The notes under the pieces are model-generated. The model was given only the letters and a program-made list of their open reading frames with translations. It was not told where the DNA came from and did not search any database. Below, piece by piece: positions 32,448-47,757 of a stretch of 64,000 bases of DNA. Each line of letters begins with the position of its first letter. Position 1 is the first letter of the stretch. The stretch lies in NCBI RefSeq assembly GCF_900292015.1, contig NZ_LR130759.1, positions 5,394,001 through 5,458,000 on the forward strand, given 5' to 3'. The DNA is from Mycobacterium basiliense (GTDB taxonomy: Bacteria; Actinomycetota; Actinomycetes; Mycobacteriales; Mycobacteriaceae). The position numbers were made by a program, and so were the translations under genes.

Positions 32448-34256
32448 ATGTCGTATGTGATCGCAGCCCCGGAGGCCATGTCGGCGACAACGGCCGACGT
32501 TGCCGAAATTGGACTGGCGATCCGCGACGCGAATGCCGCGGCCGCGCTGCCCACCACAAACGTGTTGACCGCGGCCGCCGATGAGGTGTCCGCCCAGATC
32601 GCCGCGCTATTTGCCGCGCACGGCCGCACCTATCAGGCGCTGAGCAATCAGGCCGCCGAGTTTCACGCTCAGTTCACCCAAACGTTGAGCGACGCCGCTG
32701 GGGTCTATGCCGGCGGTGAGGCCGCGAACGTGACGCTTCTGCAGTCGCTACAGACCTTGCAACAACAATTCCTCGGTGCGGTGAATACACCCACCCAGCA
32801 GCTGTTGGGACGCCCGCTGATCGGCGACGGCACCGACGGATCCGCGCCCGGACAAGCGGGCGGCGCCGGCGGGTTGCTATTCGGTAACGGCGGTGACGGC
32901 GCGGCGGGCGCGGCGGGTCAGGCCGGCGGCGCCGGCGGTAGCGCGGGGCTGATCGGCCACGGTGGGGCCGGCGGGCAGGGCGGTGGCGGCGCCGCCGGCG
33001 GCACCGGCGGCAGCGGCGGGCTGCTGTACGGCAACGGTGGAGCCGGGGGAATCGGTGGGTCCGCCCTGGCCGGTATCAACGGCGGCAACCCCGGCCAGGG
33101 CGGCGACGGCGGCCGGGCCGTGTTGTTCGGCTCTGGAGGTAACGGCGGGCAGGGCGGCACCGGTCTCACCGGGGCGGACGGGGTCAACGCCACCCCCACC
33201 GGCGCCCAGGCGCCGAGCGGAACCGACGGGACCGGCAACACCAGCACCGGCAGCAACGCGCAAGCCAGCGGGGTCCCAGGCGGCGCCGGCCATACCGGCG
33301 GCACCGGGGTGGCCGGCGGCACCGGCGGGAAGGGCGGCGCAGGCTCGGCGGTGGCCACCGGCACCGGCACCAACCACATCTTGGCCGCCGGCGGCAACGG
33401 CGGAGACGGCGGCGCGGCGGGTGCCGGCGCTACCGGCGGCGCCGGCGGCACTGGAGGCAGCGCAACCGCGCAGGATAACGTCGGCGACTCCTTTTCCAGC
33501 ACCTTCGCGCGCGGTGGCACCGGAGGTACCGGGGCGCCGGGCGGGGAATTGGGCGGAGACGGCGGCGCCGGCGGCGCCGGCGGCTCCGCCGACGCCGGGA
33601 CGCTTATGCATGGCGCCTCGGCTATCGGTGGTACCGGTGGGGCCGGTGGCGCCGGCGCCACGGGTGCGGTCGGCAACGACGGCGGCGCCGGCGGCGCCGG
33701 CGGGAACGGCGGTCGAGGTGGGCTGCTGATCGGCAACGGAGGTCATGGGGGCGCCGGTGGGATCGGTGGCGCCGGCGGCGGCGCCGACAGCGGCGGCGCG
33801 GGTGGTGGCGGCGGAAACGGCGGCAACGCCCAAGCAGTCGACATGGCGACGAGCTTCGGCGGTAACGGCGGCGACGGCGGCGACGGCGGCGAGGGCGGCG
33901 CCGGCGGCAGTGGTGGCGCCGGCGGCACCGGCGGCAGCGGTGGCGCCGGAGGTCTGCTGCTGGGCACCGGCGGTGATGGCGGTGTCGGCGGCACCGGCGG
34001 AGACGGCGGTATGGGAGGAAGCGGCGGAAACGGCGGCGGCGCGGGCCAGGGTGGATCCGCAGACAACCCAGTCAACGATGGCGAGGCCGGGAACGCGGGT
34101 ACCGGCGGCACCGGCGGTAGCGGTGGCGCCGCGGGCGCGGCCGGTAGCGGCGGTGCCGGCGGCACCAGCGGCGCTCTTGGCACGGCCGGCGCGGGGGGCG
34201 AGGTTGGCGCAACCGGCTCGCAAGGAGCCAACGGCTCCGACGGTGCCGGCGGGTAA
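32448..34256 (+). CDS. PE_PGRS family protein
   Basis: A 602-aa protein. The PE domain begins [20 protein letters not shown] and ends at [18 protein letters not shown], followed by a Gly-Ala-rich PGRS domain. RBS GCGAGGAGG precedes ATG 32448. An upstream in-frame start would add 17 non-family residues. It lies within the accessory island, tail-to-tail with the histidine kinase gene. Confidence 0.95.
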
Positions 34257-34316: not shown

Positions 34317-35873
34317 TCAGGCGGAGATCGGGATTACCACCTGCAGAGTGGTGCCAGCACCCGGGGGGCTTAGTACCCGCAGGTGACCGCCGATCGCTTC
34401 AACTCGGTCGATCAAGCCGAGAAGGCCGGACCCTTGGCTACTGTCCGCACCGCCGGCACCGTCGTCGCGTATGGAAAGCACCAGATCCGAACCCTGGGCT
34501 TTGGCGTCGATGTCCACCCCGGAAGCGTGTGCATGTCGTGCGGCGTTGGTGAGCGCCTCGGCGACAACGTAATACGCCGCGATCTCCGTCGACTCCGACA
34601 GGCGTTCTTCAATTGCCAGGTTAAGGGTGACCGGGATGGGGCAGCGTCGCGCGAGCGACTTAAGCGCCGGACCAAGGCCGCCGCTGGAGACGATCGCCGG
34701 ATGAATGCCCCGGGCAATCTCCTGGAGATCTGCTGACGCTGCGGCCAGCTCGGCGACGACCCTGGCTATTCGCCCTTTGACCGAGCCGAGTTCGGGCGGC
34801 ACCTCGGCTTCGATCAAGCGAAGTTGCACAGCAAGCGACACCAGCCGTTGTTGCGCGCCGTCGTGCAGATCGCGCTCCAATCGCCGGCGAGCGTCGTCGG
34901 CGGCGGTGACAATGCGCGCGCGTGAGGCCTTCAGGGCGGAGTGCGCCTCGGCATTTGCGATGGCGGTCGCCACAAGCTCGGTGAACTCGGCGACCCGTTC
35001 TTCGGTGTCCGGTGGCAGCGACATGACTTGCCGAGATCCGACCACGGCCGCACCCCACAGCCGGCGTTCAACGATGATCGGCGTTCCCACCCCGGCGCGT
35101 AGCCCCAGCCCACGAACGAGCGCGGGTATATCCCCAGTCGCCGTTTGGTCATCATCCAATCGTGCAGGACCGCCGGTGCGAGCGACCTTGGCGACGATGT
35201 TGTCGCCGCGCACGGGCCAGCGAGTGCCGACGGGTTTCCGCTCAGCGTGACCCGTACCTTCATACGCGGCGACAAGTGTTGCGGTGTCATCGGATTCGTA
35301 CCGCCACAGCGAGGTGTCGGTAACACCGAGACAGTGCGCCAGCTCCTCGGCCACCGCGGGAAAGATCTCGGAGGCCGGAGCTCCGCGCGCGACCAGCGTC
35401 GCGATTCGTCGAAGCGCGGCTTGTCGGCCAGCCAGGTCGCCGAGCGCTGCGCCGCTAGCCTCGGATTCTTGCCGACGTTTCGCCGCGTCCGCAGCACGCT
35501 TTCGTGCGGTACCGGCCAACGCGTGTGCCACCAGCGCAACGACGACGTAGACGACCAAGACGACCCAATCCTGAAGTTGGCTCATCACCACGCCATGTTC
35601 TGGCCAGTTACGGAAACCCGAATAGGCGATCGCGCTCAGCGCCGCCATCGCGAGGGTCAAGCCCGGGCCCCAGCCCGTCGCGATGACCAAGACACCAATC
35701 AGATACACGGCCCCGAAAGCATTGTCCGACGCGAGTTTCTTAAGTAACAGCAGCACTGCCGTCTGCACCGCGATAAGTCCGGCCGCTACCGCAACACCCA
35801 GGGACCTCGGTGGCGGCGTCCGAGACAACCAGGGTCCCCACCCGACCCGCAAGAGTGGACTCGCCTTCGTCAC
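34317..35873 (-). CDS. NarL-type sensor histidine kinase (DUF4118-like membrane region, GAF, HisKA_3)
   Basis: About 518 residues. Three to four membrane helices (residues ~25-120) resemble the KdpD-type DUF4118 region. A GAF domain (~150-300, ATLVARGAPASEIFPAVAEEL ... GLRAGVGTPIIVERRLWGAAVV) follows. The dimerisation helix has DLHDGAQQRLVSLAVQ carrying the phospho-His, and the ATPase domain has EALTNAARHA and GSGLLGLIDRVEAIGG. It starts at GTG 35873, 12 bp after the response regulator, so both are one operon. The signal is unknown; GAF suggests a small ligand or redox cofactor. Confidence 0.9.
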   Translation of the reverse strand: MTKASPLLRVGWGPWLSRTPPPRSLGVAVAAGLIAVQTAVLLLLKKLASDNAFGAVYLIGVLVIATGWGPGLTLAMAALSAIAYSGFRNWPEHGVVMSQLQDWVVLVVYVVVALVAHALAGTARKRAADAAKRRQESEASGAALGDLAGRQAALRRIATLVARGAPASEIFPAVAEELAHCLGVTDTSLWRYESDDTATLVAAYEGTGHAERKPVGTRWPVRGDNIVAKVARTGGPARLDDDQTATGDIPALVRGLGLRAGVGTPIIVERRLWGAAVVGSRQVMSLPPDTEERVAEFTELVATAIANAEAHSALKASRARIVTAADDARRRLERDLHDGAQQRLVSLAVQLRLIEAEVPPELGSVKGRIARVVAELAAASADLQEIARGIHPAIVSSGGLGPALKSLARRCPIPVTLNLAIEERLSESTEIAAYYVVAEALTNAARHAHASGVDIDAKAQGSDLVLSIRDDGAGGADSSQGSGLLGLIDRVEAIGGHLRVLSPPGAGTTLQVVIPISA

Positions 35874-35885
35874 GGTGGATTCCAG

Positions 35886-36557
35886 TCAGCGGGTTTCCAG
35901 GAAGGTGACGACCGCACGCACGCGGCGGTGATCGTCCGGGGTCTCATGCAGCTCCAGTTTGGTCATGATGCTGCGGATGTGCTTTTCGACGGTGCCTTCG
36001 GCTACCCACAGCTGCCGGGCGATCCCGGCGTTGGAGCGGCCCTCTGCCATCAATGCCAGTACTTCCATTTCGCGCGGGCTAAGCACGGCAAGCGGATCAG
36101 CGCGCTTGCGTGCGCAGACCAATTCCTGAACCAGGGCCGGATCGATCACCGATGACCCGCCGGCGATCCGCTGAAGCGAGTCGAGAAATTCGGCGACGTC
36201 GGAAACGCGGGTCTTCAACAGGTAGCCGACACCGTATCCGCTGGCCAGTAACTGGGTCGCGTGCTCAACTTCCACATGCGCCGATAGCACGAGCAGCGCG
36301 ATTTCGGGCATCTCTTCCCGGATAGCTAACGCGGCATCGAGTCCGTCGGAGCTGTTGGTAGGAGGCATCCGGATATCGACAACCACCAGCTGCGGACGCT
36401 TGGCGCGAACCACATCGACCAGAGTCGTCGCGTCGCCCACGGTGTCTAGGACGTCATGGCCCGATCGGGTCAGCAAGCTGGCCAGTCCTTCTCGCAGCAA
36501 CACATCGTCGTCGGCGAGCACGACCCGCAGACCCGTTTGCCCCGGCTGCTCCGCCAT
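35886..36557 (-). CDS. LuxR/NarL-type response regulator
   Basis: A 223-aa regulator. The receiver domain has DDDVLLREG, the phospho-Asp in LVVVDIRMPP, and YLLKTRV. The C-terminal LuxR helix-turn-helix reads LSPREMEVLALMAEGRSNAGIA and GTVEKHIRSIMTKLEL. ATG 36557 has GAGGGGACGAC before it. It is partner of the kinase downstream. Being within the island, it is a candidate regulator of the peptide cluster (inference). Confidence 0.93.
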   Translation of the reverse strand: MAEQPGQTGLRVVLADDDVLLREGLASLLTRSGHDVLDTVGDATTLVDVVRAKRPQLVVVDIRMPPTNSSDGLDAALAIREEMPEIALLVLSAHVEVEHATQLLASGYGVGYLLKTRVSDVAEFLDSLQRIAGGSSVIDPALVQELVCARKRADPLAVLSPREMEVLALMAEGRSNAGIARQLWVAEGTVEKHIRSIMTKLELHETPDDHRRVRAVVTFLETR

Positions 36558-36644: not shown

Positions 36645-37616
36645 TCAGCGGACGCCGCCAGGACCGTCCCGCCCCGCATTGGCAGGGCAAGCTGCGTCCG
36701 CGCCGGCAAACGTTGCGGCGACGAGGCTCAGTTCGCCGAAGACGGCCGCAGTATCATCGTCGGGAAACTCAAATCCGTTGTGGGCGTATAGCTCCTTAAT
36801 CGTACGGGCCGTCAGTTGCCAACCGTGCATCGTCAGATACTCAATGACGGTGTGGCGGTCACCGGAGTAGACCAACTCCGACATGTCGAGATCGAGTCCC
36901 ATCCGACTCCAGCGCGCCGAAAGTTGCTGCGCGTGCTCGCCGGTCAATCCCACGGGGTCCGGGAAGTGCTCGGTAGCAAGTTGGCTGGTTGGTACGCTGA
37001 GCGAGGCGATGCTGTCGAACAGTCGATCCTGCGCGTCCGGCGGCAGATAAATCAGCAGGCCCTCGACGATCCACGCCGTTGGTTTGTTCGCGTCAAATCC
37101 GTGCTGGTGCAACGCTGCGGGCCAGTCGTCGCGCAGATCGATGCCGATCGGCCGCCGGTCGGCGGTCGGGTCGGCGCCGAGTTCGGCCAGCGTCCACGTC
37201 TTGAAGTCGATGACGAGTGGCTGATCGATCTCGTAAACCACCATCTCGTCGGGCCAGGGCAAACGGTAGGCCCTAGTGTCCAAACCGGAGGCCAGGATCA
37301 CCGCCTGGCGGACTCCGGCGTCGGTGGCGGTCAGGCAGAAGTTGTCAAAAAACCTGGTACGCACGGCGATTTGCCGATTCGCCTCCGCACGGCGCAGCAG
37401 CGGGTCGTCCTCGAAGGCGATTTCACCGTCCAACAACCGGACGAATTGCTCTAGCCCCACCGCGCGTACCAGCGGATCGGCCAGCCGATCGTTCAGCAGC
37501 GCGTCGGGGCCCTGTGAGGCTAGCGCCCGGTAGGTCGCGATCATGGTGGCCGTCGCTCCCACGTTGCACGCCGGATCCCAGCTGTCGCCCTCATATCTGC
37601 CCGAGCGGCCAGTCAT
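36645..37616 (-). CDS. SAM-dependent methyltransferase, PPM1/TIGR00027 type (Rv3787c-like)
   Basis: A 323-aa protein of the same family as the gene at 13195. It has EGDSWDPACNVGATATMIAT at the N-terminus, the SAM strand [40 protein letters not shown], and WIVEGLLIYLPPDAQDRL. ATG 37616 has the RBS AGGAG at the right distance. The position corresponds to Rv3787c of M. tuberculosis. Here it lies downstream of the 26-codon ORF and the P450 gene in the same direction, so it could modify the peptide product or be an old resident of this locus. Confidence 0.9.
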   Translation of the reverse strand: MTGRSGRYEGDSWDPACNVGATATMIATYRALASQGPDALLNDRLADPLVRAVGLEQFVRLLDGEIAFEDDPLLRRAEANRQIAVRTRFFDNFCLTATDAGVRQAVILASGLDTRAYRLPWPDEMVVYEIDQPLVIDFKTWTLAELGADPTADRRPIGIDLRDDWPAALHQHGFDANKPTAWIVEGLLIYLPPDAQDRLFDSIASLSVPTSQLATEHFPDPVGLTGEHAQQLSARWSRMGLDLDMSELVYSGDRHTVIEYLTMHGWQLTARTIKELYAHNGFEFPDDDTAAVFGELSLVAATFAGADAACPANAGRDGPGGVR

Positions 37617-37725
37617 ACAAATTGCTCCTGTCTTCGGGGACACTGGTTGGTGCGCGCCGCGACGACGGACTATTCGCTGGCATCGAACCCATCGAGCAGT
37701 CCGGCAGCCGCGTCGCCAAGCGCAC

Positions 37726-37806
37726 TCAATCGGTCATGTTGGTCGAAAAGAATCCGGGAAAGCCGTACACGGCTTCATCTTCGGTGAACAAAAGTTCGTG
37801 GGACAT
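37726..37806 (-). CDS. 26-aa peptide ORF between P450 and methyltransferase genes
   Basis: ATG 37806 to TGA 37726-37728. A strong RBS (GAGAGGAGGTGTCCACC-ATG) makes translation likely. The peptide begins MSHELLFTEDEA and ends VYGFPGFFSTNMTD: an acidic N-terminal half and an aromatic C-terminal half (Tyr14, Phe16, Phe19, Phe20), with no Cys. A promoter-like element shared with the MauE-fusion gene lies 59 bp upstream. Options are a small RiPP precursor for the adjacent P450, or a leader peptide controlling the methyltransferase. I do not recognise a family. Confidence 0.55.
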   Translation of the reverse strand: MSHELLFTEDEAVYGFPGFFSTNMTD

Positions 37807-37864
37807 GGTGGACACCTCCTCTCCTGTGCGGCGTTACTCGAAGAGTAGGCAATAAGAATGGGTG

Positions 37865-37911
37865 TCGAATCCCTGGCAGCGGGTAACCACGTCGTCCCCC
37901 GATCAGCGGAC
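37865..37911 (-). promoter_or_regulatory. Shared cluster element, copy A (imperfect palindrome plus TCGAAT box)
   Basis: Plus-strand positions 37865-37911 align without gaps to 44739-44785, with 35 of 47 positions identical by hand count. Conserved parts are TCGAAT, CCTGGCAGC and the 18-bp site GTCCCCCGATCAGCGGAC (37894-37911), an imperfect palindrome. In both copies the TCGAAT end faces a minus-strand start codon, here the 26-codon ORF. Read on the minus strand, GGGATTCGA could be a -35-like box with CCTACTCT about 18 bp later. Function inferred. Confidence 0.55.
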
Positions 37912-38023
37912 AGCGGTGGTCAGGCAGGTTTCGCGAGTAGCCACATTGCCAACCTGTCGGTCTCAACCAAGCCAGGCAGTGTTGAGGATTCGGTTGAAGT
38001 TTCGGTGGCCGATCGACGTTTCG

Positions 38024-39334
38024 TCACGGCTCGACCGTGACCCGAAGTTGGCAAGGCTCTGGCACCGGACGCCATCCCAGCGACACCGTCGCCCGGCCAG
38101 GTTGGCGTTTCTCAGCGACCGGACGCACCTGGTAACTGCCGAACAGCGCGCCCAACACGATCCTCATCTCGTGTTGCCCGAACGCCGCGCCCAAACAACG
38201 GCGAACACCGCCACCGAACGGAATCCACGTGTAGGCCCCGGCCCGCTGTTCCAAAAATCTCTCAGGCCGAAACCGCTCCGGGTCGGGATAAACATCCGGT
38301 CGCCGATGCATCAGATAGATCGATGGCACCACGGTGACGCCTGCCGGCAACAGCCTGCCGCCGATCTCCATCGACGCCGTCAACCGCCGCGGAACCAGTG
38401 AGAAGACGGGCAGCAAGCGCAGCGTCTCCTTTACGATCGCATCGAGGAAATCGTGGCTGCCACAGCGCAATTCCTCGACGAGCCGGTCCTGCACCGCGGG
38501 GTGAGCGACGATGCACTCCACCGCCCACGCGAGCGCGGTGGCCGTGGTTTCGTGACCGGCCAGCAGCAGCGTCATCACCTCATCACGGACCTCGACATCG
38601 CTCAACGGCCGGCCATCCCCCTGCGTTGCCCGCAACAGCATCGAGGTGATGTCATTGCGCTCGTCTAGGCTATCCGCACCGCGCCGATCCTGAATCTCGG
38701 CGATCAACAGCCGGTCGACGCGGCTGAACAACCTACGTGTCAGCTCCGCCCTCACACGCTGCGGGCTGAGGACCAGCAACAAAAGCCGGCCCGGGCTGCC
38801 GGCCGCCGTGCTCAACACCCGCACCAGTTCTGCGCGTAGCTGACCAAGGCGCCCGGTGTCCGATGCCCCCAACACCGCACGCAGGATGACCTCCAGCGTC
38901 AACGCCTGCATACGGGAATGCAATGGCACCGGCTCACCCCGCGGCCAGTCCGCGATTTCACTATGGGCGATGTCGGCCATCGCATTGACATGGCACTTCA
39001 ATCGATCGCCACGAAAGGGCGGCACGAGCAGACGACGCTGTTCCCGATGCGCGTCATCGTCGCGAAGGAGCACCGAGTTGGCACCGACCACCGGCAGCAG
39101 AATGCGATTTGCCGCCCCCGCCCGCAACAACTTCGGGGGCGCCGTGAAAACCTCTCTCACGGAGTCCGGATGCGACATCATCACCCAGGTGCCCTCACCC
39201 GCCAACCGCATCGTGAAAGTGTCGCCGTACCGAGCCGCCGCCCGCTCCATGAATGCCCACGGGTTGGCGATCCACGCGGCGGTCTGAACGCCAACCGGGA
39301 GTCGAGGACCAGCCGGCAACGCACCGATTACCAA
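38024..39334 (-). CDS. Cytochrome P450 (CYP138/CYP137-like)
   Basis: About 436 residues. The I-helix oxygen-activation motif is LLLAGHETTATALAWAVE, the K-helix ExxR is KETLRLLPVF, PERFRPERF is present, and the haem-binding loop FGGGVRRCLGAAFG carries the cysteine. All motifs are intact. The start is set at TTG 39334 because GGAGGT lies 6 bp before it; a TTG at 39364 would put that RBS inside the gene. Mycobacterial CYP138-like enzymes are the closest I recall. In this context it may oxidise or cross-link a ribosomal peptide. The precursor and lanM genes are divergent from it. Confidence 0.92.
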   Translation of the reverse strand: MVIGALPAGPRLPVGVQTAAWIANPWAFMERAAARYGDTFTMRLAGEGTWVMMSHPDSVREVFTAPPKLLRAGAANRILLPVVGANSVLLRDDDAHREQRRLLVPPFRGDRLKCHVNAMADIAHSEIADWPRGEPVPLHSRMQALTLEVILRAVLGASDTGRLGQLRAELVRVLSTAAGSPGRLLLLVLSPQRVRAELTRRLFSRVDRLLIAEIQDRRGADSLDERNDITSMLLRATQGDGRPLSDVEVRDEVMTLLLAGHETTATALAWAVECIVAHPAVQDRLVEELRCGSHDFLDAIVKETLRLLPVFSLVPRRLTASMEIGGRLLPAGVTVVPSIYLMHRRPDVYPDPERFRPERFLEQRAGAYTWIPFGGGVRRCLGAAFGQHEMRIVLGALFGSYQVRPVAEKRQPGRATVSLGWRPVPEPCQLRVTVEP

Positions 39335-39530
39335 GCGAATACCTCCAATTCGGAACAGCGGCAAACAACGTTCCTGCCACGCTCGCCGGATATCGGAGCC
39401 CCAGCAACCCGGCTAGCCCCCAATTCCGACCCAGTGGCCCACCCCGACTGGGCGCTAGCGGTACCCGCACAATGCCGGGTAGCAGGGGGGACAATGCGCC
39501 TCCCGCCCGACTACCGTGGCGATCGCCAAG

Positions 39531-39568
39531 GGTTGGCATGGCCGCTCAGTTGTACGGCCATGCCAACC
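39531..39568 (+). promoter_or_regulatory. Perfect 14-bp inverted repeat upstream of precursor peptide
   Basis: GGTTGGCATGGCCG (39531-39544) and CGGCCATGCCAACC (39555-39568) are exact inverted repeats separated by a 10-base loop CTCAGTTGTA. It ends 37 bp before the precursor ATG. It could be an operator for a dimeric regulator or a 5' untranslated hairpin affecting translation or stability. Confidence 0.6.
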
Positions 39569-39605
39569 CATCCACTACCCAGGAAATCAATGAAAGAAGA
39601 CGAAC

Positions 39606-39731
39606 ATGAATTCTGCTACCAGCGACCGCATCGACAGCATCCTCCTCCCCGCCTATTCCGATGAAGCCTTGGAAGGCGCCGGCGGCATGGGCGTGGCAGC
39701 GATAACGATCTTGAATCCAACGGCTAAGTAA
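39606..39731 (+). CDS. Candidate lanthipeptide-type precursor, 41 aa, no cysteine
   Basis: Starts ATG 39606 (GAAAGAAGACGA upstream) and ends TAA 39729-39731. The leader-like part contains DSILLPAYSDEALEGAGG, whose SDEALEGAGG resembles the conserved end of class II lanthipeptide leaders with a double-glycine cleavage site. The predicted core is MGVAAITILNPTAK: two Thr, one Lys, no Cys and no Ser. It lies 123 bp upstream of lanM on the same strand. Thr dehydration to dehydrobutyrine is possible, but classical thioether rings are not. The assignment rests on position and leader resemblance. Confidence 0.6.
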   Translation: MNSATSDRIDSILLPAYSDEALEGAGGMGVAAITILNPTAK

Positions 39732-39760
39732 CACAACACTTCCGATTCGGAAGACGATTT

Positions 39761-39790
39761 GGCGGTCGCTGATCTTTACTAGCGGCCGCC
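39761..39790 (+). terminator. Stem-loop between precursor and lanM (attenuator-like)
   Basis: GGCGGTCGCT (39761-39770) pairs with AGCGGCCGCC (39781-39790), with one G-U pair and loop GATCTTTACT. A smaller palindrome CTTCCGATTCGGAAG precedes it at 39739-39753. Precursor-lan operons often have a partial terminator here so that more peptide than enzyme is made. This role is inferred. Confidence 0.45.
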
Positions 39791-39854
39791 GAAATCGACT
39801 GCGACGAGCAACGTTCTCCGTTGCGGTCCTCGCGGGCCGAGTCGGAAGAATGAA

Positions 39855-42800
39855 ATGGAAGAGTTTTACCAGCGGCTCATATACCGGGCCGCAACCATCG
39901 ACGAGTTACTGTCTGACGCATTCGAACCCTTGCCCGGCCAAAAGGCTGACAGCGAGTTGGCCGCGCGTCGCCTCGCCTCCTGGTGCCAGGCGTCGGCCAG
40001 CGGCGACTGGTCGCTGTTCACGCACCGGCTAGCAGCCGATGGGCTAGCGCTCGAGGGTGTGTTGGCAAAATTCGCCACCGCCCGCCGCGACGCGGCCCGG
40101 CCGGCACCGCCATGGTTCGGCGACGCCGTATGGATCGGCGAAGCGTTGCACAGTTCCACCACCATTGCTTCGGACATTGCTTCGGACATTGCTTCGGAAC
40201 CCCTTGCTTCGGAACCCCTTGCTTCCGAGGTGGATTCCTGCGCGTTCGAAGACCTGCTGGAACCGGTGATCCGCGGCGCGGAGTCACGCCTTTGGCGCCA
40301 TGTCGGCAGTCGTGTGGCGGCCGACGTCGGCGAGCAGGCCCGCGCATGCCTGCGTCGCTCACTGGTGGCTGAGCTGTCGAACCTGACGGCTCCGGCGATC
40401 TACGAGCAATTCACCAAGGCCCGCGACGATAGCCGCTCGACCGTCCGCTACCCAGAGTTCGTTGCGGATATGCGGGCGTATGGATTTCGTCGCTTGTTCG
40501 ACGACAAGCCTGTCCTACTACGGCTAATGGCCTCGCTCACCCGGCAGTGGATCGATACCTCGGGTGAGCTGATCGCGCGGCTGGGCGCGGACCTGCCCGC
40601 GATTCGTCACGGCTTGCTTGGAGCCGACACCTGCTGCGAAGTGACGAGCATCGACGGTGGCCTCTCCGATCCACACAACTTTGGGCGTACCGTCCACATC
40701 ATCGGCTTTGCCGACGGTTCACGTGTCGTGTACAAGCCGAAAGATCTCGAGGTCGACGTCGCATGGCATGCGTTGATTGAGCGACTGAACCGCGACGCCC
40801 CGATCGAGCTCCGCGCGGCACGGGTGTTAGCACGCACCGGCTATGGCTGGACAGAATTCGTCGATCATACGAGCTGCCCAGACCCGCAAGGCTTTCAGGC
40901 CTACTTCCAGCGCGCGGGGGCATGGCTCGCGCTCTTCCACTGCTTTGCCGGTAGTGACATGCACCAGGAAAACATCATCGCCGCCGGCGACCATCCGATG
41001 CCGATCGACCTGGAGATGGTTCTCCAGTTCGCCGAGCCACCTGGCGCGGACGCCGACTCGGGCGCGGGGCGCGCCTATCACACCGCGATGGAAAAGCTTC
41101 GCGACTCGGTCCTGTCGGTCGGCCTGCTTCCGACCTATGGCAAGCATTCTCACAGCGCGTTCTCGATCGGCGGAATGATTTCGCATTCCACTCCACGCAT
41201 CGGACTGACCTGGATCGACGTCAATTCCGACACCATGCGGCCAGCGAAAATCGCTGAAATCGAGGCGATCTCCAATCTGCCGCAAGCGCGCGGCCAGCAC
41301 GCCCGATTCGGAGACCACATCGACGACTTCCGGTCCGGTTTCACCGAGTACGCGACCTTCCTACAACGGCAGCGCCCAAACGACCTTTTCGAAGGCTTCG
41401 CCGGATTGACGGTTCGCAAGGTCGCCCGGCCGACGAGGTTTTATCACATGTTGGTGCAGCGCCTCAAAGATCACCGCACGATGGAAGACGGTGTCACGTG
41501 GTCCGCTCAGGCGGACTTCATCGCCAGGCTGGCGGACTGGCAGCAGGACAACGACCCGTTGTGGCCGCTGCAGCGTCTCGAGCGCGCGGCGGTGGTGCAG
41601 TTGAACGTGCCGCATTTTGTGATGACCAGCGACGGCCACGAGATCCGCGACGCGACCGGAGCCTCGATCCCGGTAAAGGGGATGTCTGGCCTCGACCGGG
41701 CGCGCGCCCGGCTGGGCGACCTCGACGAGATGGAAGTCGCATGGCAGGCAGAGATCATTCGGCTGAGCACGAGCACCGGGATCTCGCCGCATGGCTCGGC
41801 GACCACGCCCGTTCGACGCGTTGACGTGTCGAACGCGGCTAGCCGCGAGATTTTCATGGCCGAAGCCGACCGCGCCGCTCGATCGCTCTTCGAGCACGCT
41901 TACCTCGAAAGTTCGGCGGCGGCCTGGATCGGTCTCGACTGGCTCGGTGACTCCGAGGTGTCCCATCTGGTTCCACTCGGCGACGACCTCTACAACGGCA
42001 GTTGCGGCATCGCGCTGTTCCTCGCCGCACACACCGCCGTTACCACCGCCGATTCCTCGACGAGCCTTGCCTATGCGGCGATGTCCCGGCTCCGGGAAAC
42101 CCTACGGGGCCGCAATGCCCCCAAAATGGCTCGCTTGCTCGGGCTGGGAGCGGGGTTCGGCGTGGGATCGATCGTCTACGGCCTCGCGGTGATTGCGGCG
42201 CTGCTGGAAGACGACGATGTGCTGTCGGACGCGCAGCGGGCGGCGCAGCTGATCACTCCGGACGTCATTTCGGCGGATCGGCAGCTTGACGTTCTGGGTG
42301 GCAGCGCCGGCGCCATCCTGGGACTGCTTCGGCTGTACCGTCAAACGGGTTGTGGCGATGCACTCGAGCGCGCGATCAAGTGCGGGCAACACCTGCTGGC
42401 CCAACAGCGCGTTGGCACCGTGGGCCGGCGCAGCTGGCCGGCACCCGGTTCTGGCAGCGCCCTTGGCGGGATGTCGCATGGCGCCGCCGGCTTCGCCTAT
42501 GCGTTGGCCGCACTGGCCGCGGCCACCGGGAGCGCGGAGTTCGCCAGCGCGTCCCAGGAATGCATCGCTTTTGAAAACGCGACATTCGAAGCCGAACATA
42601 GCAGTTGGCGCGACACCGAGGGCGCCGGCGCGCGCGGCGAGTGGTGCCACGGACTTCCCGGCATCGGCCTAGCCCGCGCGGCGATGATCAAACATACAGC
42701 GGCGGGTGGCCGCCTCGTCCGAGCCGATATCCGCCGCGCACTAGCGGGAGTAGAGCACCGTGGGCTGGACCCGACCGACACGCTGTGCTGCGGGACCCTC

Positions 42801-43037
42801 GGCACCATCGAATTCATCTGGGAAGCCGGTGACTTGCTGGACCGCGACGATCTCCGCGAAAACGCGGTCCGGCGGCTGCTGACCGTCGCCCAGGCCGCCC
42901 GGTCGCGGGGTGATTATCGGTGGGACAACGGAACCCGACGCTTTAATCTTGGTCTCTTCCGCGGAATCGCGGGCGTCGCCTATACGATGTTGCGGCGGGT
43001 CGACCCCGCGCTTCCCAACGCCCTAATCTGGGAGTAA
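39855..43037 (+). CDS. lanM: Class II lanthipeptide synthetase LanM
   Basis: A 1060-aa bifunctional enzyme, normal LanM size. Residues ~1-200 are helical. The DUF4135 dehydratase with a kinase-like fold spans ~200-650 (SRVVYKPKDLEVDVAWHALI, FHCFAGSDMHQENIIAAGDHPMPIDLE). The LanC-like cyclase is ~690-1060, with EWCHGLPGIGLARA (Cys931) and TLCCGTLGTIEF (Cys978-Cys979). The two motifs give a Cys-Cys-Cys zinc site (CCG type, as in ProcM) instead of CHG. It should phosphorylate and eliminate Ser/Thr, then cyclise. ATG 39855 follows GTCGGAAG. It is preceded by the 41-aa candidate precursor. Confidence 0.95.
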   Translation: MEEFYQRLIYRAATIDELLSDAFEPLPGQKADSELAARRLASWCQASASGDWSLFTHRLAADGLALEGVLAKFATARRDAARPAPPWFGDAVWIGEALHSSTTIASDIASDIASEPLASEPLASEVDSCAFEDLLEPVIRGAESRLWRHVGSRVAADVGEQARACLRRSLVAELSNLTAPAIYEQFTKARDDSRSTVRYPEFVADMRAYGFRRLFDDKPVLLRLMASLTRQWIDTSGELIARLGADLPAIRHGLLGADTCCEVTSIDGGLSDPHNFGRTVHIIGFADGSRVVYKPKDLEVDVAWHALIERLNRDAPIELRAARVLARTGYGWTEFVDHTSCPDPQGFQAYFQRAGAWLALFHCFAGSDMHQENIIAAGDHPMPIDLEMVLQFAEPPGADADSGAGRAYHTAMEKLRDSVLSVGLLPTYGKHSHSAFSIGGMISHSTPRIGLTWIDVNSDTMRPAKIAEIEAISNLPQARGQHARFGDHIDDFRSGFTEYATFLQRQRPNDLFEGFAGLTVRKVARPTRFYHMLVQRLKDHRTMEDGVTWSAQADFIARLADWQQDNDPLWPLQRLERAAVVQLNVPHFVMTSDGHEIRDATGASIPVKGMSGLDRARARLGDLDEMEVAWQAEIIRLSTSTGISPHGSATTPVRRVDVSNAASREIFMAEADRAARSLFEHAYLESSAAAWIGLDWLGDSEVSHLVPLGDDLYNGSCGIALFLAAHTAVTTADSSTSLAYAAMSRLRETLRGRNAPKMARLLGLGAGFGVGSIVYGLAVIAALLEDDDVLSDAQRAAQLITPDVISADRQLDVLGGSAGAILGLLRLYRQTGCGDALERAIKCGQHLLAQQRVGTVGRRSWPAPGSGSALGGMSHGAAGFAYALAALAAATGSAEFASASQECIAFENATFEAEHSSWRDTEGAGARGEWCHGLPGIGLARAAMIKHTAAGGRLVRADIRRALAGVEHRGLDPTDTLCCGTLGTIEFIWEAGDLLDRDDLRENAVRRLLTVAQAARSRGDYRWDNGTRRFNLGLFRGIAGVAYTMLRRVDPALPNALIWE
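40164..40229 (+). repeat. In-frame short tandem repeats inside lanM
   Basis: ATTGCTTCGGAC occurs at 40164 and 40176, followed by a variant third unit and two units of TTGCTTCGGAACCCC (15 bp). They encode IASDIASDIASEPLASEPLASE in segments of 4-5 residues, in the poorly conserved N-terminal region of LanM. Because the units are multiples of three, copy number could change without frameshift. Confidence 0.8.
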
Positions 43038-43141
43038 AACGCTTGGGAAACCGCGCTTCTCGATCCTCGGACGTGGGCACCGCCGCGACTGGCGCCGTGA
43101 CCAACCCTCACCAGCCGCGGGCCGCGCTTGGTCTGCGGGTG

Positions 43142-44608
43142 CTACGCGGGACAGGTGGTGGGGAATTCCACCGGCTGACCGAGTTTTTTCATACCCTTCT
43201 TGTACTGCGTGCTGCCTGGCAAGTCGGGAGTCGCGGCCGACCATATCGTCGAAGTGCAGGTGTCGGTGTCGCACCCGCCGCCGAAAGTCCGCGACTCACC
43301 AGTCTTCACCGTGATGCATTGGCACCTTGCCCGGGCGGGGTTGGTGGGATCGATCTCGCACTCCACGTCCAGGCAATTGGCCCATGGCACTCCGGAGGGA
43401 CAGCTCAGTACGCCGAACTCGGTGTTGACATTCACCGTCGAAAATGCCGACCGCACAGAGGTGCCCGACTGAGCACGCTCGGGGCAAGTCTTGAATCCGA
43501 TCGAGTAGCCATTCACAACGACGCAGTCACAAACCGAGATAGTGGGATCGGTTGCCGATGGCACACACGGCGCAGTGGTGCACAGCGCAAAGGTTTGATC
43601 GCACAACCAGGCGCCGTCAACCTCCAATGCCTTGGTATCCAGAGACGCGGTGCCGTTGTGACCGGTATCGCAGGCAGCCAGGGCCGGTAGTACACCGGCG
43701 GACGCCAAGCCGACCGAGGCGTGCCGCAGCAGTCCCCGCCGCGTGAACCTGGACTCCGCGGCGACCTGCACGGCTCGCTGCACGAGGTCCTTGATGGCGG
43801 GCGCTCCGCTGGCCGAGGACAACCGTCGGCCGTTGTCGATAAGCACCGCGCTGGGCGTGGCGGTGATGCCGTAGGAGGCGAATGACAGTCTTTGCTCATC
43901 GATAAGTTCGAACGGCACAACGTGATTAGTGGGGGCGGTGCTGACCAAAGCCACTGTGACGCGCTCACCCAGATCACGTTGCCATTGGTCCACCTCAGGT
44001 AGCAGTGCCGCACATGCGCCGCAACCGGGCTGACTGAAGATGAACACAACCGGTCGGTGATCCGCCGAGAGTCTGTCCAGCGTCCATACTTGTCCGGTCC
44101 GGTCCGGCAGCGCCGGGCCGTTCACGCTGGTGCCCGCGCGCGTCGTCCACCGGCGGTATGCAACGGGTCCGATCCACAACGCGAACATCACGAGCGCCAA
44201 CATCGCTAACGACCAACTGAAACGGCCGTCAAGCGCGACGAATGCAGCGATCGTCGCCAGGCATCCGTTCCTGGCCAGGGTGGGCCATCCCAGCGTCCCC
44301 GCCGATAACCGCCCGAAGCAGTGGCAGTCCAGACTTCGGCCCCGGGCGAGGTTCACCAGGATCGCCGCGCTGAATCCCGTCAGCGCAAGGAGCGCGAGCA
44401 CCGCACCCCGATAAGCCCAGCCCCCCACCAGCAGAAGCACGACACCGAGCTCCATGGCGACCAGCACCGACCCGACAACTGCGGCCGCCGCTTTCGGTAC
44501 CCCAAATGCCACCACCGCGCGACGAACGCCCGCCCAATCCGACAACTTCGCCAGTGCCGCGATTGCGAACACCCCGGCCAGCAGAATCCTCGCTGCCAAC
44601 ATCGTCAT
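43142..44608 (-). CDS. MauE-like membrane domain fused to thioredoxin (MauD-like) and a Cys-rich domain with internal Tat/lipobox signal
   Basis: A 488-aa protein starting ATG 44608 with GGAGGT upstream. Residues ~1-135 are a MauE/DoxX-type four-helix membrane domain with a CHCFGRL motif. Residues ~150-275 are thioredoxin-like with CGAC (FSQPGCGACAALLPEVDQW) and the cis-Pro region TATPSAVLI. Then FTRRGLLRHASVGLASAG...ALAAC is a twin-arginine signal with a lipobox-like Cys. About 170 residues with roughly 14 Cys follow (CDQTFALC, CDCVVVNG, CQCITV, CDTDTCTS). It is convergent with lanM. Known MauE/MauD help form disulfides in the Cys-rich MauA; this gene joins all three types of part. Confidence 0.8.
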   Translation of the reverse strand: MTMLAARILLAGVFAIAALAKLSDWAGVRRAVVAFGVPKAAAAVVGSVLVAMELGVVLLLVGGWAYRGAVLALLALTGFSAAILVNLARGRSLDCHCFGRLSAGTLGWPTLARNGCLATIAAFVALDGRFSWSLAMLALVMFALWIGPVAYRRWTTRAGTSVNGPALPDRTGQVWTLDRLSADHRPVVFIFSQPGCGACAALLPEVDQWQRDLGERVTVALVSTAPTNHVVPFELIDEQRLSFASYGITATPSAVLIDNGRRLSSASGAPAIKDLVQRAVQVAAESRFTRRGLLRHASVGLASAGVLPALAACDTGHNGTASLDTKALEVDGAWLCDQTFALCTTAPCVPSATDPTISVCDCVVVNGYSIGFKTCPERAQSGTSVRSAFSTVNVNTEFGVLSCPSGVPWANCLDVECEIDPTNPARARCQCITVKTGESRTFGGGCDTDTCTSTIWSAATPDLPGSTQYKKGMKKLGQPVEFPTTCPA

Positions 44609-44738
44609 CTGGCGCCCACCTCCAGTTCTGCCGAGGACAACACAGATGCGCTGTCCGCCACGCTCGGCCCGACGTAGGCCGGGCGAGTACCCACCGATAG
44701 TCCTTTTCCAGTCACAAGGTAGATCGTGTGGGTGAAAT

Positions 44739-44785
44739 TCGAATTCCTGGCAGCAGGGATCGCGACTGTCCCCCGATCGGGGGAC
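44739..44785 (-). promoter_or_regulatory. Shared cluster element, copy B (perfect 18-bp palindrome)
   Basis: It contains TCGAAT, CCTGGCAGC and, 13 bp later, the perfect palindrome GTCCCCCGATCGGGGGAC (44768-44785). It matches 37865-37911 with identical spacing. It lies in the 390-bp divergent gap (44609-44998) between the MauE-fusion gene and the FolE-like gene. On the minus strand, GGAATTCGA followed by CTACCTT about 19 bp on could be promoter boxes for the MauE fusion. I see no other feature in the gap. Confidence 0.6.
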
Positions 44786-44998
44786 TACGTGATCGCTTCT
44801 CGGGCATCCCACACGGCGACGAACGTCGCGACCAGGGCCCCTGCAGACGTTTGCACTTGCCTTCGGCCGGTGAACGTATCCATACGCTGCGGGCGCCGAT
44901 CCGATGCGCCCGACCGAGGGCCCGGTCCAAAGCAGCCATTGAGAATCCGCCAAGAATCCTTTGAGAATTCGCCAAGGTATCGCCCCGAGGCTGGCGCC

Positions 44999-45508
44999 GT
45001 GCATCACATTCGAGCGCTCCATGGCACCGGATATCCCCGTGCCGACGCATCCCAGCCGCCCTCGTCCATCACTACCGGCGCCGCTACGCGAGCCCTCGGC
45101 GATGCCGAACTGGTGGTGGTTCGGCCGGTACCGTTCCGGTCGCTGTGCGCCGATCACTTACTTCCGTTCCAAGGTGTCGTGCATATCGGGCACATCGACA
45201 GCGAAAACCATTTGAGCACACCTGAATTAACTCGCATCGTGGCGGCGTGTACGCGCAGCATTCAAACGCAGCAGCCGATGACGATCAGGATTGGCCTGTG
45301 GCTGCACCATCAGCTGGTCCCACGAGGGGTAGGAGTGCTGGTCAAGGCGAACTACGCCTGTGCGGCGGCGGCGCGCGGCGACGCGCACCTAGGCCGGCCG
45401 GCGACCACAATGGCGTTCTGCGGCTCGATGCGGCACAGCGCAGACGAGCGACAGGAATTCGTGGCACTCGCCCGCCGGGAGCGGCACAAAGGGGCGGCCG
45501 GCCAATGA
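44999..45508 (+). CDS. Divergent GTP cyclohydrolase I (FolE)-like protein
   Basis: About 169 residues, starting at GTG 44999 with CGAGG upstream; the frame is open further upstream but that part is not FolE-like. The catalytic core is recognisable: RSLCADHLLPFQGVVHIGHI, LSTPELTRIVAACTR, and VKANYACAAAARG. Zinc ligands Cys, His and Cys are kept, but the CEHH motif is CADH and the His two residues before the last zinc Cys is Tyr. The N-terminal helices of normal FolE (~200 aa) are missing. It overlaps the next gene by 4 bp (ATGA), forming a two-gene unit. Confidence 0.78.
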   Translation: MHHIRALHGTGYPRADASQPPSSITTGAATRALGDAELVVVRPVPFRSLCADHLLPFQGVVHIGHIDSENHLSTPELTRIVAACTRSIQTQQPMTIRIGLWLHHQLVPRGVGVLVKANYACAAAARGDAHLGRPATTMAFCGSMRHSADERQEFVALARRERHKGAAGQ

Positions 45509-46038
45509 ACGACATCACAATCAGCGACCGGGTGCGCGCCGTCACCGTCCACCGGGCGGACGCACCCATCGGCCGCACCGCAAGATTCCACCTAAACAAG
45601 CGGTTTAGCGATCTACCCTGCTGTCATCGCTCGTGGTCCAGGCACGACAAGCGGGTGTTTCTGCACGGGTACGAACTGACCTTCGAGATCGAGTTCGCCT
45701 GCACGGAAACCGAAACCCGCACCGGCCTGGTGGTCAACAACCGTTGCCTCAACGAGGTCCGCGCAGCGCTACAACACCAGTTCGATCACACTACATTGAT
45801 CGCCGCTGACGACCCACAGCGAAACCTGTTCGAACAGCTGGCCGGCGAAGGCGTCATCGACCTGCGAATCATGAACGCCACCAGCATGGAGGGGGCCGCA
45901 GCCTGGGTGTTCGACACTGTCGAACACATCGTGGCGCCGGCCACCGACGGCCGGGTCTGGGTCTCTCGCATAGCGGCTCGGGAGAGCCGCAACAACGTGG
46001 TCACCCTGACCGCCGAACCGGAAGATCGCTTCGATTGA
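45505..46038 (+). CDS. QueD/6-pyruvoyltetrahydropterin-synthase-like protein, HGY subfamily
   Basis: A 177-aa protein starting ATG 45505, overlapping the FolE-like stop. T-fold signature: RTARFHLNKRFSDLPCCHRSW, FLHGYELTFEIEFAC, HQFDHTTLI and the pterin-anchoring Glu in NATSMEGAAAWVF. Where QueD/PTPS have zinc ligands in HGH, this has HGY, and the first His of the normal triad is not aligned. I recall a separate subfamily with CCHR...HGY. With the FolE-like neighbour it suggests a pathway from GTP to a pterin or 7-deazapurine-like product. No QueE or QueC is seen here. Confidence 0.78.
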   Translation: MNDITISDRVRAVTVHRADAPIGRTARFHLNKRFSDLPCCHRSWSRHDKRVFLHGYELTFEIEFACTETETRTGLVVNNRCLNEVRAALQHQFDHTTLIAADDPQRNLFEQLAGEGVIDLRIMNATSMEGAAAWVFDTVEHIVAPATDGRVWVSRIAARESRNNVVTLTAEPEDRFD

Positions 46039-46355
46039 TCATCCAACTGGAAATGCGGCTAAACCATTGCAGCTCAAGGGTTCCGGGATGAACAAACGAG
46101 TCGCGCACGCCGGCGCAAGCAGTGATTGAGGGGTCCCTGCTTGCCAGCGAGATAGGAGGTACACCGACAATACGGGCGCGTGGGGCGGCCGCGGTCAAGG
46201 CATCCCACCGCAACCACCAGCGTCGTGGGTGCCCCAACACCGCCGGGACCCGGCTATCGTCGTCGATGCGTACCAGGGAACCTTGCCGAAGCCCGACGCC
46301 CACACAAGGCCACCAACTGGACACTCTGGGCTCGCCGAAGGAGGAGTATGCGATC
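46039..46355. other. 317-bp intergenic region upstream of NfeD-flotillin genes
   Basis: No gene is supported. A frame is open through it in phase with the NfeD-like gene from 46122, but its amino acid composition is non-descript and it has no family resemblance. GATAGGAGG near 46150 is RBS-like but leads to no convincing start. GAAGGAGGAG at its end is the RBS of the next gene. Confidence 0.4.
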
Positions 46356-46586
46356 GTGAGCGACGCCTCGATGATTGGGTGCGTCGGGACGTTGATCGTG
46401 GCGACCCGCGGCGCGCACGGCCCCGGCGAGGTCGTGCTCTCCGTGCGGGGGTCCAAGGAGACATTTCTGGCCCGCTCCCACGAGCCATTGCCGAAGGGCA
46501 CCCCCGTGCTGGTGGTTGGGGTTCGAGGTAGCAGAACGGTGCTTGTCGAACCTTGGACCGAGATGGCGGCAACCGAATTGCTCTGA
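46356..46586 (+). CDS. Small NfeD-like (OB-fold) protein
   Basis: A 76-aa protein from GTG 46356 with GAAGGAGGAG upstream. The sequence IGCVGTLIVATRGAHGPGEVVLSVRG and PLPKGTPVLVVGVRGSRTVLVEPW matches the C-terminal OB-fold domain of NfeD proteins, without their membrane helices. NfeD proteins are usually encoded beside SPFH/flotillin genes, and the flotillin gene begins 31 bp later. It probably assists flotillin assembly (inference). Confidence 0.75.
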   Translation: MSDASMIGCVGTLIVATRGAHGPGEVVLSVRGSKETFLARSHEPLPKGTPVLVVGVRGSRTVLVEPWTEMAATELL

Positions 46587-46617
46587 AGAAACCGCGAACA
46601 AACCAAGGAGTCCAACA

Positions 46618-47757
46618 ATGCTCGGTTATAAGGTGCCCGATCCCGATGAGGCGATGCTGATATCCGGAGGCCGCACCAAAAGCAATGCCCCGTTCCGCGT
46701 CGTGACTGGCCACGGCTCCTTCATCATGCCGTTCTTCCGCAAGGTGCGGTTCCTTACGCTGGCCATGTGTGAAGCGGAGGTCGCCGAGAAGTGCGTGACC
46801 CAGCAGGGCATCACCCTCAACGTGCGTGCGGTGATCGCCTTCAAGGTCGGCAACGACACCGAGAGCATCATCGCCGCAGCGCAGCGGTTCCTATCCGAGC
46901 AAGACCAGATGTCGGTGTTGACCGGGCGCATCTTCGCCGGCCACCTACGCTCCATCATCGGCTCGATGACCGTCGAAGAGATCATCCGGGAGCGACAGAA
47001 GCTGGCGACCGAGGTCCTCGACGGTTCCAAGGAAGAGATGGCGCGGATTGGCCTGGCCGTCGACGCCCTGCAGATCCAGTCCATCGACGACGACGGGCTT
47101 GGCTACATCGACGCGATGTCGGCACCACACAACGCCGCTATCCAGCAGCAAGCGCAGATCGCCCAGGCACAAGCGAACCAGGCAGCCGCAGAGGCCGAGC
47201 AAGAATCGCAGCGCAAGCAAGCCGAGTTCGCCCGTGAAACCGCGGTGGTCAAGGCGCAATACAAGGCCGAGGTCGACAAGGCTCAAGCCCAGGCCAACCA
47301 GGCCGGCCCGCTGGCCGACGCGCAATCGCAGCGCGAGGTGCTAGAGATGCGCACCGAATTGGCGCAACGCGCAGCTGAACTACGCCAGCAGGAATTGGTC
47401 GCCGAGGTGGTCAAACCTGCGGAGGCCGAAGCCGAACGAGTTCGGATCTTGGCCGTCGCAGACGCCGAGAAGATGAAGATCCAGGCCGAAGCCGCAGCGT
47501 CACACAATCGAGTGGCGTTGGACCGGATGCTCATCGACCAGCTACCCGAGATCGTCGAGAAGGCCGCCCAGGGGCTCTCCGGCGCGAACTTGACCGTGCT
47601 CAACGGCGCCGAGGGACTTAGCCAGGTCGCCGCCGGCCTGGTCTCCCAGGGACTTGCTCTCTTCGACACGCTGCGCGGCGGGACACTCGACTATGACGAC
47701 GAGGCCTCGGAGAACATCGTGTCCCCGATCGGCGGCGGCGCGAAAGATGGCTCGTGA
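46618..47757 (+). CDS. Flotillin-like SPFH protein
   Basis: A 379-aa protein. The SPFH/band-7 domain at ~10-170 includes FIMPFFRKVRFLTLAMCEAEV, GITLNVRAVIAFKVGND and IIGSMTVEEIIRERQKL. It is followed by an Ala/Glu/Gln-rich coiled coil (~180-310) and a C-terminal flotillin region (IVEKAAQGLSGANLTVLNG). There is no strong N-terminal membrane helix, as in flotillins. It should form membrane-associated oligomers marking microdomains. RBS AAGGAG precedes ATG 46618. It is last in the island before the conserved Rv3788-like gene. Confidence 0.9.
   Translation: MLGYKVPDPDEAMLISGGRTKSNAPFRVVTGHGSFIMPFFRKVRFLTLAMCEAEVAEKCVTQQGITLNVRAVIAFKVGNDTESIIAAAQRFLSEQDQMSVLTGRIFAGHLRSIIGSMTVEEIIRERQKLATEVLDGSKEEMARIGLAVDALQIQSIDDDGLGYIDAMSAPHNAAIQQQAQIAQAQANQAAAEAEQESQRKQAEFARETAVVKAQYKAEVDKAQAQANQAGPLADAQSQREVLEMRTELAQRAAELRQQELVAEVVKPAEAEAERVRILAVADAEKMKIQAEAAASHNRVALDRMLIDQLPEIVEKAAQGLSGANLTVLNGAEGLSQVAAGLVSQGLALFDTLRGGTLDYDDEASENIVSPIGGGAKDGS

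Follow-up and report, generated by a model that had tools for sequence, protein, structure and literature searches.

In a 64,000-nucleotide stretch of the Mycobacterium basiliense genome (NZ_LR130759.1, positions 5,394,001 to 5,458,000; hereafter the window), part of a 5.6-Mb single-contig genome, our comparison points to an accessory stretch of about 14 kb between wzm and dprE1 that probably carries two systems for ribosomally synthesized and post-translationally modified peptides (RiPPs), next to a resident FolE–PTPS gene pair. System A would consist of a class II lanthipeptide synthetase (LanM), a precursor of 41 amino acids (aa) and a cytochrome P450, perhaps together with a two-component system. 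System B would consist of a 26-aa peptide, a methyltransferase and a MauE–thioredoxin fusion, with a palindromic element preceding both the peptide and the fusion, and would be a satellite of the single YcaO–TfuA locus of the genome. An earlier, sequence-only reading had treated all of these genes as one RiPP cluster around LanM. Its LanM locus with precursor and P450 stands, whereas the 26-aa open reading frame (ORF) and the element belong to a family of YcaO–TfuA precursors, and the FolE/QueD-like pair and the MauE fusion are not part of a LanM cluster.

Locus organization

All genes named in that reading were found in the positions it gave. From the end of wzm (30834) to the FolE-like gene (44999), the order is two ORFs (30990–31847 and 32397–34256), a histidine kinase, a response regulator, the methyltransferase, the 26-aa ORF, the P450, the 41-aa ORF, LanM and the MauE fusion. 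In genome G064 the aligned parts of wzm and FolE lie only 302 bp apart, as compared with 14.2 kb between the two genes in the window, which argues that the intervening DNA is an insertion of about 14 kb. This spacing, together with a genuine precursor and a P450, bears out the proposal that a LanM RiPP locus was inserted between wzm and dprE1. The neighbourhood that is conserved extends further, to the kinase and the response regulator (34317–36557), which lie outside the limits first drawn. Each window protein served as query to count co-occurrence in 198 genomes of the genus, sampled evenly from a larger group; a second sample, a collection of named genomes, was used for relatives of LanM.

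The LanM unit

The LanM gene (39855..43037, plus strand) encodes a 1060-aa class II lanthipeptide synthetase with a DUF4135 dehydratase and a LanC-like cyclase (LANC_like) domain, scoring 711 bits with TIGR03897 against a cut-off of 304. All motifs sought are present, namely the kinase-like motifs and both zinc motifs (WCHG and LCCG, with CCG-type ligands), and the protein matches LicM2 (6st5) and CylM (5dzt); it is the only LanC-like family match in the genome. Directly upstream and adjoining it, as in class II lanthipeptide loci, lies the 41-aa precursor (39606..39731, plus strand), with an SDEALEGAGG leader and a core ending in ITILNPTAK. The enzyme architecture, the catalytic motifs and an SDEALE..GG-type leader precursor directly upstream are thus shared with the class II systems of LicM2 and CylM. 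Unlike those systems, the unit has a P450 partner, a C39 peptidase/LanT domain (PF03412; a common, not strictly defining, class II trait) has no match anywhere in the source genome, and the precursor lacks the core Cys that a (methyl)lanthionine requires. As no Cys occurs in its entire 41 residues, no lanthionine is possible within this precursor. The CCG-type zinc site presumably resembles that of ProcM, the prochlorosin synthetase. Prochlorosins have dozens of precursors per synthetase; by comparison, each window-type LanM has one or two 41-aa precursors, plus a P450.

Relatives of LanM occur in 14 of the 198 genomes (E ≤ 1e-20). In the named-genome collection they were found in M. simulans, M. 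triplex, M. montefiorense, M. genavense, two Mycobacterium strains, M. persicum, M. attenuatum, a Methylocystis metagenome-assembled genome (MAG) and a Lachnospiraceae MAG (26% identity). A profile of the 41-aa peptide matches in four of the 198 genomes, and the same four carry a window-type LanM (70–75% identity, or the query itself) and P450 (74%, or the query itself). The P450 gene (38024..39364, minus strand, putative start) has relatives in eight of the 198 genomes at E ≤ 1e-120: the window protein and three at 74% identity, one of them partial, fall in exactly the four genomes with the 41-aa peptide, and the other four (58–64% identity) have no LanM nearby. LanM, P450 and the 41-aa peptide are adjacent in five species, namely that of the window, M. 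simulans, M. triplex, M. genavense and M. montefiorense (for which the data comprise the LanM locus only); a homologue of the peptide lies upstream of LanM in each of the four relatives, and in M. montefiorense two copies flank LanM on both sides. The conserved unit, as judged by this co-occurrence, is P450, 41-aa precursor and LanM. Assignment of the window P450 to the ApyO type (NF050147) was not adopted; this is its best NCBIfam match, at 163 bits against a cut-off of 525.

Across the 41-aa family 20 columns are invariant, among them SDEALE, AG, TIL, PT and the C-terminal K. The core ends in TPTCK in M. triplex and M. genavense, in TPTAK in M. simulans, in TPTAK and QPTAK in M. montefiorense, and in NPTAK in the window; a core Cys is therefore absent from four of the six precursors of the P450-bearing clade and present in those of M. 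triplex and M. genavense. By comparison, all eight precursors found for LanM relatives outside this clade (L025, L027, L074, L075, L076, L077, L079 and L081) have at least two Cys, the precursors of L025 and L076 having been part of the profile; for the LanM relatives of L023 and L024, precursors were searched for and none was found. Changes are also seen in the enzyme. The M. simulans LanM (L026 10001–13084) is in frame throughout and keeps the dehydratase motifs KPK, DMHQEN and IDLE, but the WCHG segment is gone and LSGG replaces LCCG, which makes it a candidate natural dehydratase-only class II enzyme.

These losses could also be read as steps of pseudogenization in a decaying lanthipeptide locus that no longer yields a product. 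The zinc motifs missing from the M. simulans enzyme fit such decay, as does M. genavense, in which LanM and the P450 are each split into two pieces. We consider this unlikely in view of the ratios of nonsynonymous to synonymous substitution rates (dN/dS), which are about 0.26 for LanM (window versus M. simulans and versus M. triplex) and 0.20–0.26 for the P450 (window versus relatives), with intact frames, and in view of the TIL.PT.K core, which is invariant across species. LanM and the P450 are, by these ratios, under purifying selection. We infer instead that selection maintains this LanM line for Thr dehydration, with cyclization optional or lost and the P450 as partner.

In system A, LanM would bind the SDEALE leader and dehydrate the core Thr residues of ITILNPTAK, and the adjacent P450 would then oxidize the dehydrated peptide, perhaps at the invariant Pro or at a dehydrobutyrine. 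This choice of target is a guess from lanthipeptide P450s that hydroxylate Pro. Because the genome has no C39 peptidase match, export and leader removal would proceed by other means; transporters of the MFS type lie near the M. triplex and M. montefiorense LanM loci. The likeliest product of system A, to go by its gene content, is a dehydrated, P450-oxidized peptide.

Outside the actinobacterial genomes, the Methylocystis MAG, an alphaproteobacterial bin, holds a full-length LanM (L025 9642–13213) that is 51% identical to the window LanM, and a precursor with a related SDEALEAAA leader and a KCCR end, reflecting either cross-phylum transfer or a binning error.

The 26-aa peptide and the YcaO–TfuA family

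The sequence-only reading had singled out two small ORFs, and both proved to be conserved in other species. The second, the 26-aa ORF (37726..37806, minus strand), has an MSHELLFTE leader, a YGF motif and a strong Shine-Dalgarno site, and a close homologue lies upstream of the MauE fusion in M. simulans. The short ORFs of its family share a conserved N-terminus (M.HELLF.E.E..Y), their C-terminal part varies, and most have strong Shine-Dalgarno sites (a run of at least 5 in 46 of 51 genes). Three lists of family genes were used: 54 profile matches, 63 motif-based genes for the palindrome test and 71 motif-based genes for a recount. The profile matches are spread over 15 of the 198 genomes, with up to 15 per genome. 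YcaO occurs in 19 of the 198 genomes, which include every one of the 15 profile genomes (hypergeometric 3e-19); the four YcaO genomes without a profile match are G074, G116, G142 and G161, of which G116 has a family gene by motif. Of 24 loci examined, 10 have a family peptide immediately ahead of YcaO, with TfuA generally alongside. By its membership in this YcaO-associated set of short peptides, the window peptide fits a precursor of the YcaO–TfuA (thioamide-type) kind.

Many family genes lie far from any YcaO. Among the profile matches, 19 of 54 are within 3 kb of YcaO and 35 are not, a split biased to remote copies since the profile was built from four peptides, none close to an intact YcaO; 15 of the 35 are on contigs without a YcaO match, so that no distance could be measured. 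The motif-based recount, whose regions were picked by peptide or YcaO matches and hence are not an unbiased sample, places 36 of 71 family genes within 3 kb of YcaO and 35 farther away; with TfuA pieces included, 41 have a YcaO or TfuA piece within 3 kb and 30 have none. Five genomes consist of one to three contigs, and in these 12 of the 19 family genes examined are more than 3 kb from any YcaO. The window is such a case: the 3 kb on either side of the 26-aa ORF contain no piece of YcaO or TfuA, and the single YcaO of the source genome, at 2,619,234 and accompanied by TfuA, is 2.8 Mb away. That locus holds two further family peptides, unreported by the four-sequence profile, and a palindrome of the kind described below. 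Because the only YcaO is so distant, the 26-aa peptide would be modified in trans by YcaO–TfuA, with thioamide formation by analogy, and then by the neighbouring enzymes. A YcaO remnant (91 aligned residues; L084, near 4100–4900) lies 407 bp from the M. simulans peptide beside MauE–thioredoxin and LanM, and this remnant and the TfuA pieces at remote copies suggest that such loci once had an enzyme of their own.

The same distances could mean that the 26-aa ORFs are other short peptides, for example signal or regulatory ones, that accompany YcaO–TfuA loci without being RiPP precursors; the 35 profile matches and 30 recounted genes lacking a nearby enzyme would fit, as would the short, acidic C-terminus. 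Set against this are the presence of YcaO in every profile genome, the 10 loci with the peptide directly before YcaO, and the combination of a conserved N-terminus with a variable C-terminal part, and we regard a non-precursor role as quite unlikely.

A family of short mycobacterial precursors next to YcaO–TfuA recalls work by Santos-Aberturas and colleagues (2019; PMC6511847), who, in the passages available, described a YcaO–TfuA pair in many mycobacteria and assigned to it their largest putative precursor network (Network 1), with predicted thioamidation; unlike those precursors, that of the window is 2.8 Mb from YcaO. The same passages place the precursors usually near a type III polyketide synthase and a sulfotransferase and describe a search of short ORFs up to 8 kb from the tailoring enzyme. 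Passages of another study (PMC8120280) report that M. szulgai and M. angelicum have six TfuA clusters apiece, and the passages of neither paper mention a YcaO–TfuA product of mycobacteria. Searches of open full text with strings from the conserved 26-aa N-terminus returned only unrelated papers.

Two side observations concern the surroundings of these peptides. Remote 26-aa-type precursors in L124, L125, L135 and L138 lie near another S-adenosylmethionine (SAM) methyltransferase, P450s or a sulfatase, which may be private tailoring sets or resident neighbours. In two M. simulans loci (L084 2352–3422 and L065 10644–11576), 26-aa-type peptides and MauE–thioredoxin are joined by a carbon-nitrogen hydrolase family, which could be a peptide-trimming amidase.

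The palindromic element

The 47-bp repeat noted earlier is real, its two copies being 74% identical. One lies upstream of the 26-aa ORF (37865..37911, minus strand), with a palindrome at 37894–37911 that agrees with the consensus at 16 of 18 positions; the other lies upstream of the MauE fusion (44739..44785, minus strand), with a perfect palindrome at 44768–44785. It had been taken as a sign, shared by two promoter regions, that at least part of the cluster acts as a unit; it does appear to be a shared regulatory element, but the genes it stands ahead of are the 26-aa ORF and the MauE fusion rather than LanM.

The palindrome GTCCCCCGATCGGGGGAC, at 15 or more of 18 positions, occurs 56 times in 1.66 Mb of related, partly redundant loci and not once in the same DNA reversed, and is therefore beyond chance. 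Two sites in the 5.6-Mb genome match the full two-part pattern, both of them at this locus; the same search, run with the window spacer, finds no M. simulans site since the spacer there is one base shorter (these sites were read directly). Among the loci scanned for it, the longer 47-bp match including CCTGGCAGC is confined to the window and M. simulans.

Of 63 family genes, 29 have the palindrome, at 14 or more of 18 positions, in the 300 bp upstream, as compared with 2.6% of 3000 random windows, which were drawn from the same loci and so include some true sites. Among 51 of the 54 profile matches (three were left out), it is found ahead of 15 of the 32 remote genes and 4 of the 19 YcaO-near ones. 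By these counts, more than half of the family genes are without the palindrome. Viewed from the palindrome, 27 of the 36 distinct sites at 15 or more of 18 positions in all loci scanned have a family start within 330 bp (two of the 27 share one peptide and two precede looser family members), and three lie ahead of the MauE fusions of the window and M. simulans; at a further site, in L120, the peptide is 157 bp away and was missed by the automatic rule. By comparison, no palindrome at 14 or more of 18 positions was found in the LanM loci L021, L022, L023, L024, L025, L027 and L029, which include those of M. triplex, M. montefiorense and M. genavense. Its occurrence with family genes and its absence from these LanM loci indicate that the repeat marks the YcaO–TfuA peptide family rather than LanM.

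The methyltransferase, the MauE–thioredoxin fusion and the proposed separation of the two systems

Directly downstream of the 26-aa ORF lies a TIGR00027 (LCM-type) SAM methyltransferase (36645..37643, minus strand), which is 81% and 74% identical to those at two M. simulans 26-aa-type loci and 41–42% identical to the LanM-adjacent ones of M. triplex, M. montefiorense and M. genavense; because of these identities we place it in system B. The MauE fusion (43142..44608, minus strand; 488 aa) joins MauE, thioredoxin, a Tat-like signal and a Cys-rich domain, and its homologues in M. simulans lie beside 26-aa-type ORFs. It is present in eight of the 198 genomes and adjoins LanM in only two of them, that of the window and M. 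simulans, and was rejected as a LanM partner.

Could all of these genes nevertheless form one hybrid RiPP pathway, in which LanM, the P450, the methyltransferase and the MauE–thioredoxin fusion act on both peptides under shared control to give a single or a two-peptide product? In the window as in M. simulans the two systems lie side by side; in M. triplex, M. montefiorense and M. genavense, LanM is followed downstream by a methyltransferase that belongs to the same broad family and whose closest relative (75–78% identity) is beside the M. simulans MauE–thioredoxin fusion. These two points count against our separation of the systems. However, M. triplex (G163) and M. genavense (G076) have LanM, P450 and the 41-aa peptide with no match to the 26-aa profile or to YcaO, and the M. 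triplex MauE–thioredoxin fusion lies 2.9 Mb from LanM. The low identity of the LanM-linked methyltransferases to that of the window and the seven LanM loci free of the palindrome point the same way, and a hybrid pathway seems very unlikely.

The Cys-rich domain (window 43145–43651) has no recognizable fold, but its Cys/Trp pattern is strongly conserved among mycobacteria, with a mean column identity of 82% in 10 sequences. A kinship with the light chain of methylamine dehydrogenase was considered; the best PDB sequence match of the domain, at E 0.28, is unrelated, and a structure model had a pLDDT of 44 and was unusable. A second MauE–thioredoxin–Cys-rich fusion in the source genome (L072 8840–10423; C1:515935–517416) is 54% identical to the first and has no palindrome at 14 or more of 18 positions upstream.

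The two-component system and the resident FolE–PTPS pair

By gene neighbourhood, the histidine kinase (DUF4118–GAF–HisKA_3; 34317..35873, minus strand) is a possible regulator of the LanM unit, with the NarL/LuxR-type response regulator (35886..36557, minus strand) as its putative partner. The pair lies near LanM in the window, M. triplex, M. genavense and M. montefiorense; the M. simulans pair is found at a 26-aa-type locus instead. The kinase family occurs in 44 of the 198 genomes (E ≤ 1e-120), and five kinase loci without LanM have neither the LanM-unit P450 nor the 41-aa peptide nearby. The pair was also considered as the binder of the palindrome and not adopted: the pair-bearing LanM loci L021, L022 and L029 are without the palindrome, and of the five pair loci without LanM, four have none and one has a single 14/18 match.

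The GTP cyclohydrolase I (FolE)-like gene (44999..45508, plus strand) and the PTPS/QueD-like gene (45505..46038, plus strand), which overlap by ATGA, were rejected as cluster members. PTPS occurs in 21 of the 198 genomes; in the four other genomes that also have a LanM relative, the two genes are far apart or on different contigs and never near each other. The test named for the one-cluster proposal, conserved co-occurrence with LanM, went against the FolE/QueD pair, as it did against the MauE–thioredoxin fusion. Within the available flanks, the PTPS loci examined have wzm on one side and, on the other, either NfeD–flotillin or the window genes at 47949 and 48494 with dprE1; at several, PTPS alone was detected. 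Judged by these neighbourhoods in other genomes, the FolE–PTPS pair, found without LanM, is a resident of the wzm–dprE1 region outside both peptide systems and not part of the insertion. More broadly, FolE-like, PTPS-like, NfeD-like and flotillin genes (window 44999–47757) form a recurring wzm–dprE1 neighbourhood in many mycobacteria.

Discussion

We put the chance of the following wider picture at about one in two. In some mycobacteria one or a few central YcaO–TfuA pairs would modify in trans many scattered precursors of 25–30 aa, forming a dispersed regulon in which many of the precursors are marked by the palindrome and the satellites have private tailoring genes, here the methyltransferase of the 26-aa ORF and the MauE–thioredoxin fusion. 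Beside it would stand a LanM line that is giving up lanthionine formation, its dehydratase feeding a P450. Both products, and any bioactivity they may have, are predicted from gene content.

Further observations tell against parts of this picture. For system A, the loss of the zinc site in M. simulans is known from one public assembly, and the LanMs of the window and M. montefiorense retain the zinc ligands; in zinc-retaining enzymes cyclization may still act on an unrecognized, Cys-bearing substrate. The zinc-bearing end of LanM has a dN/dS of 0.28–0.39 in M. simulans pairs and 0.38 in the M. triplex/M. montefiorense pair, values so comparable that there is no clear extra relaxation in M. simulans. 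In L125, L128, L135 and L138, P450s from the wider family occur near 26-aa-type peptides, which blurs the division into two systems. For system B, some remote family peptides sit by TfuA pieces or on short contigs, and most of the loci in which the palindrome was sought had been selected because they contain the peptide or YcaO. Neither of the published neighbours, a type III polyketide synthase and a sulfotransferase, was among the 10 flanking proteins of the YcaO loci scanned, so that the identity of the family with Network 1 is only a possibility.

Passages of PMC3951391 report a LanB locus in M. tusciae, those of PMC3848822 mention no mycobacterial lanthipeptide, and no title on the present locus was among the matches listed in a search of open full text (without subscription papers or supplements). 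A mining pipeline is described, in part of PMC7268733, as discarding ORFs without a core Cys as lanthipeptide precursors; in part of PMC11251773, substrates of ProcM-family synthetases are said to include Cys-less peptides.

Our findings expose two blind spots in RiPP mining: a core-Cys requirement discards LanM precursors such as the 41-aa peptide, and a search restricted to the surroundings of the tailoring enzyme would miss many precursors of the 26-aa type. If modification in trans holds true, mycobacteria would possess a large and mostly unseen set of modified peptides, and the shared regulatory signature would make their products searchable.

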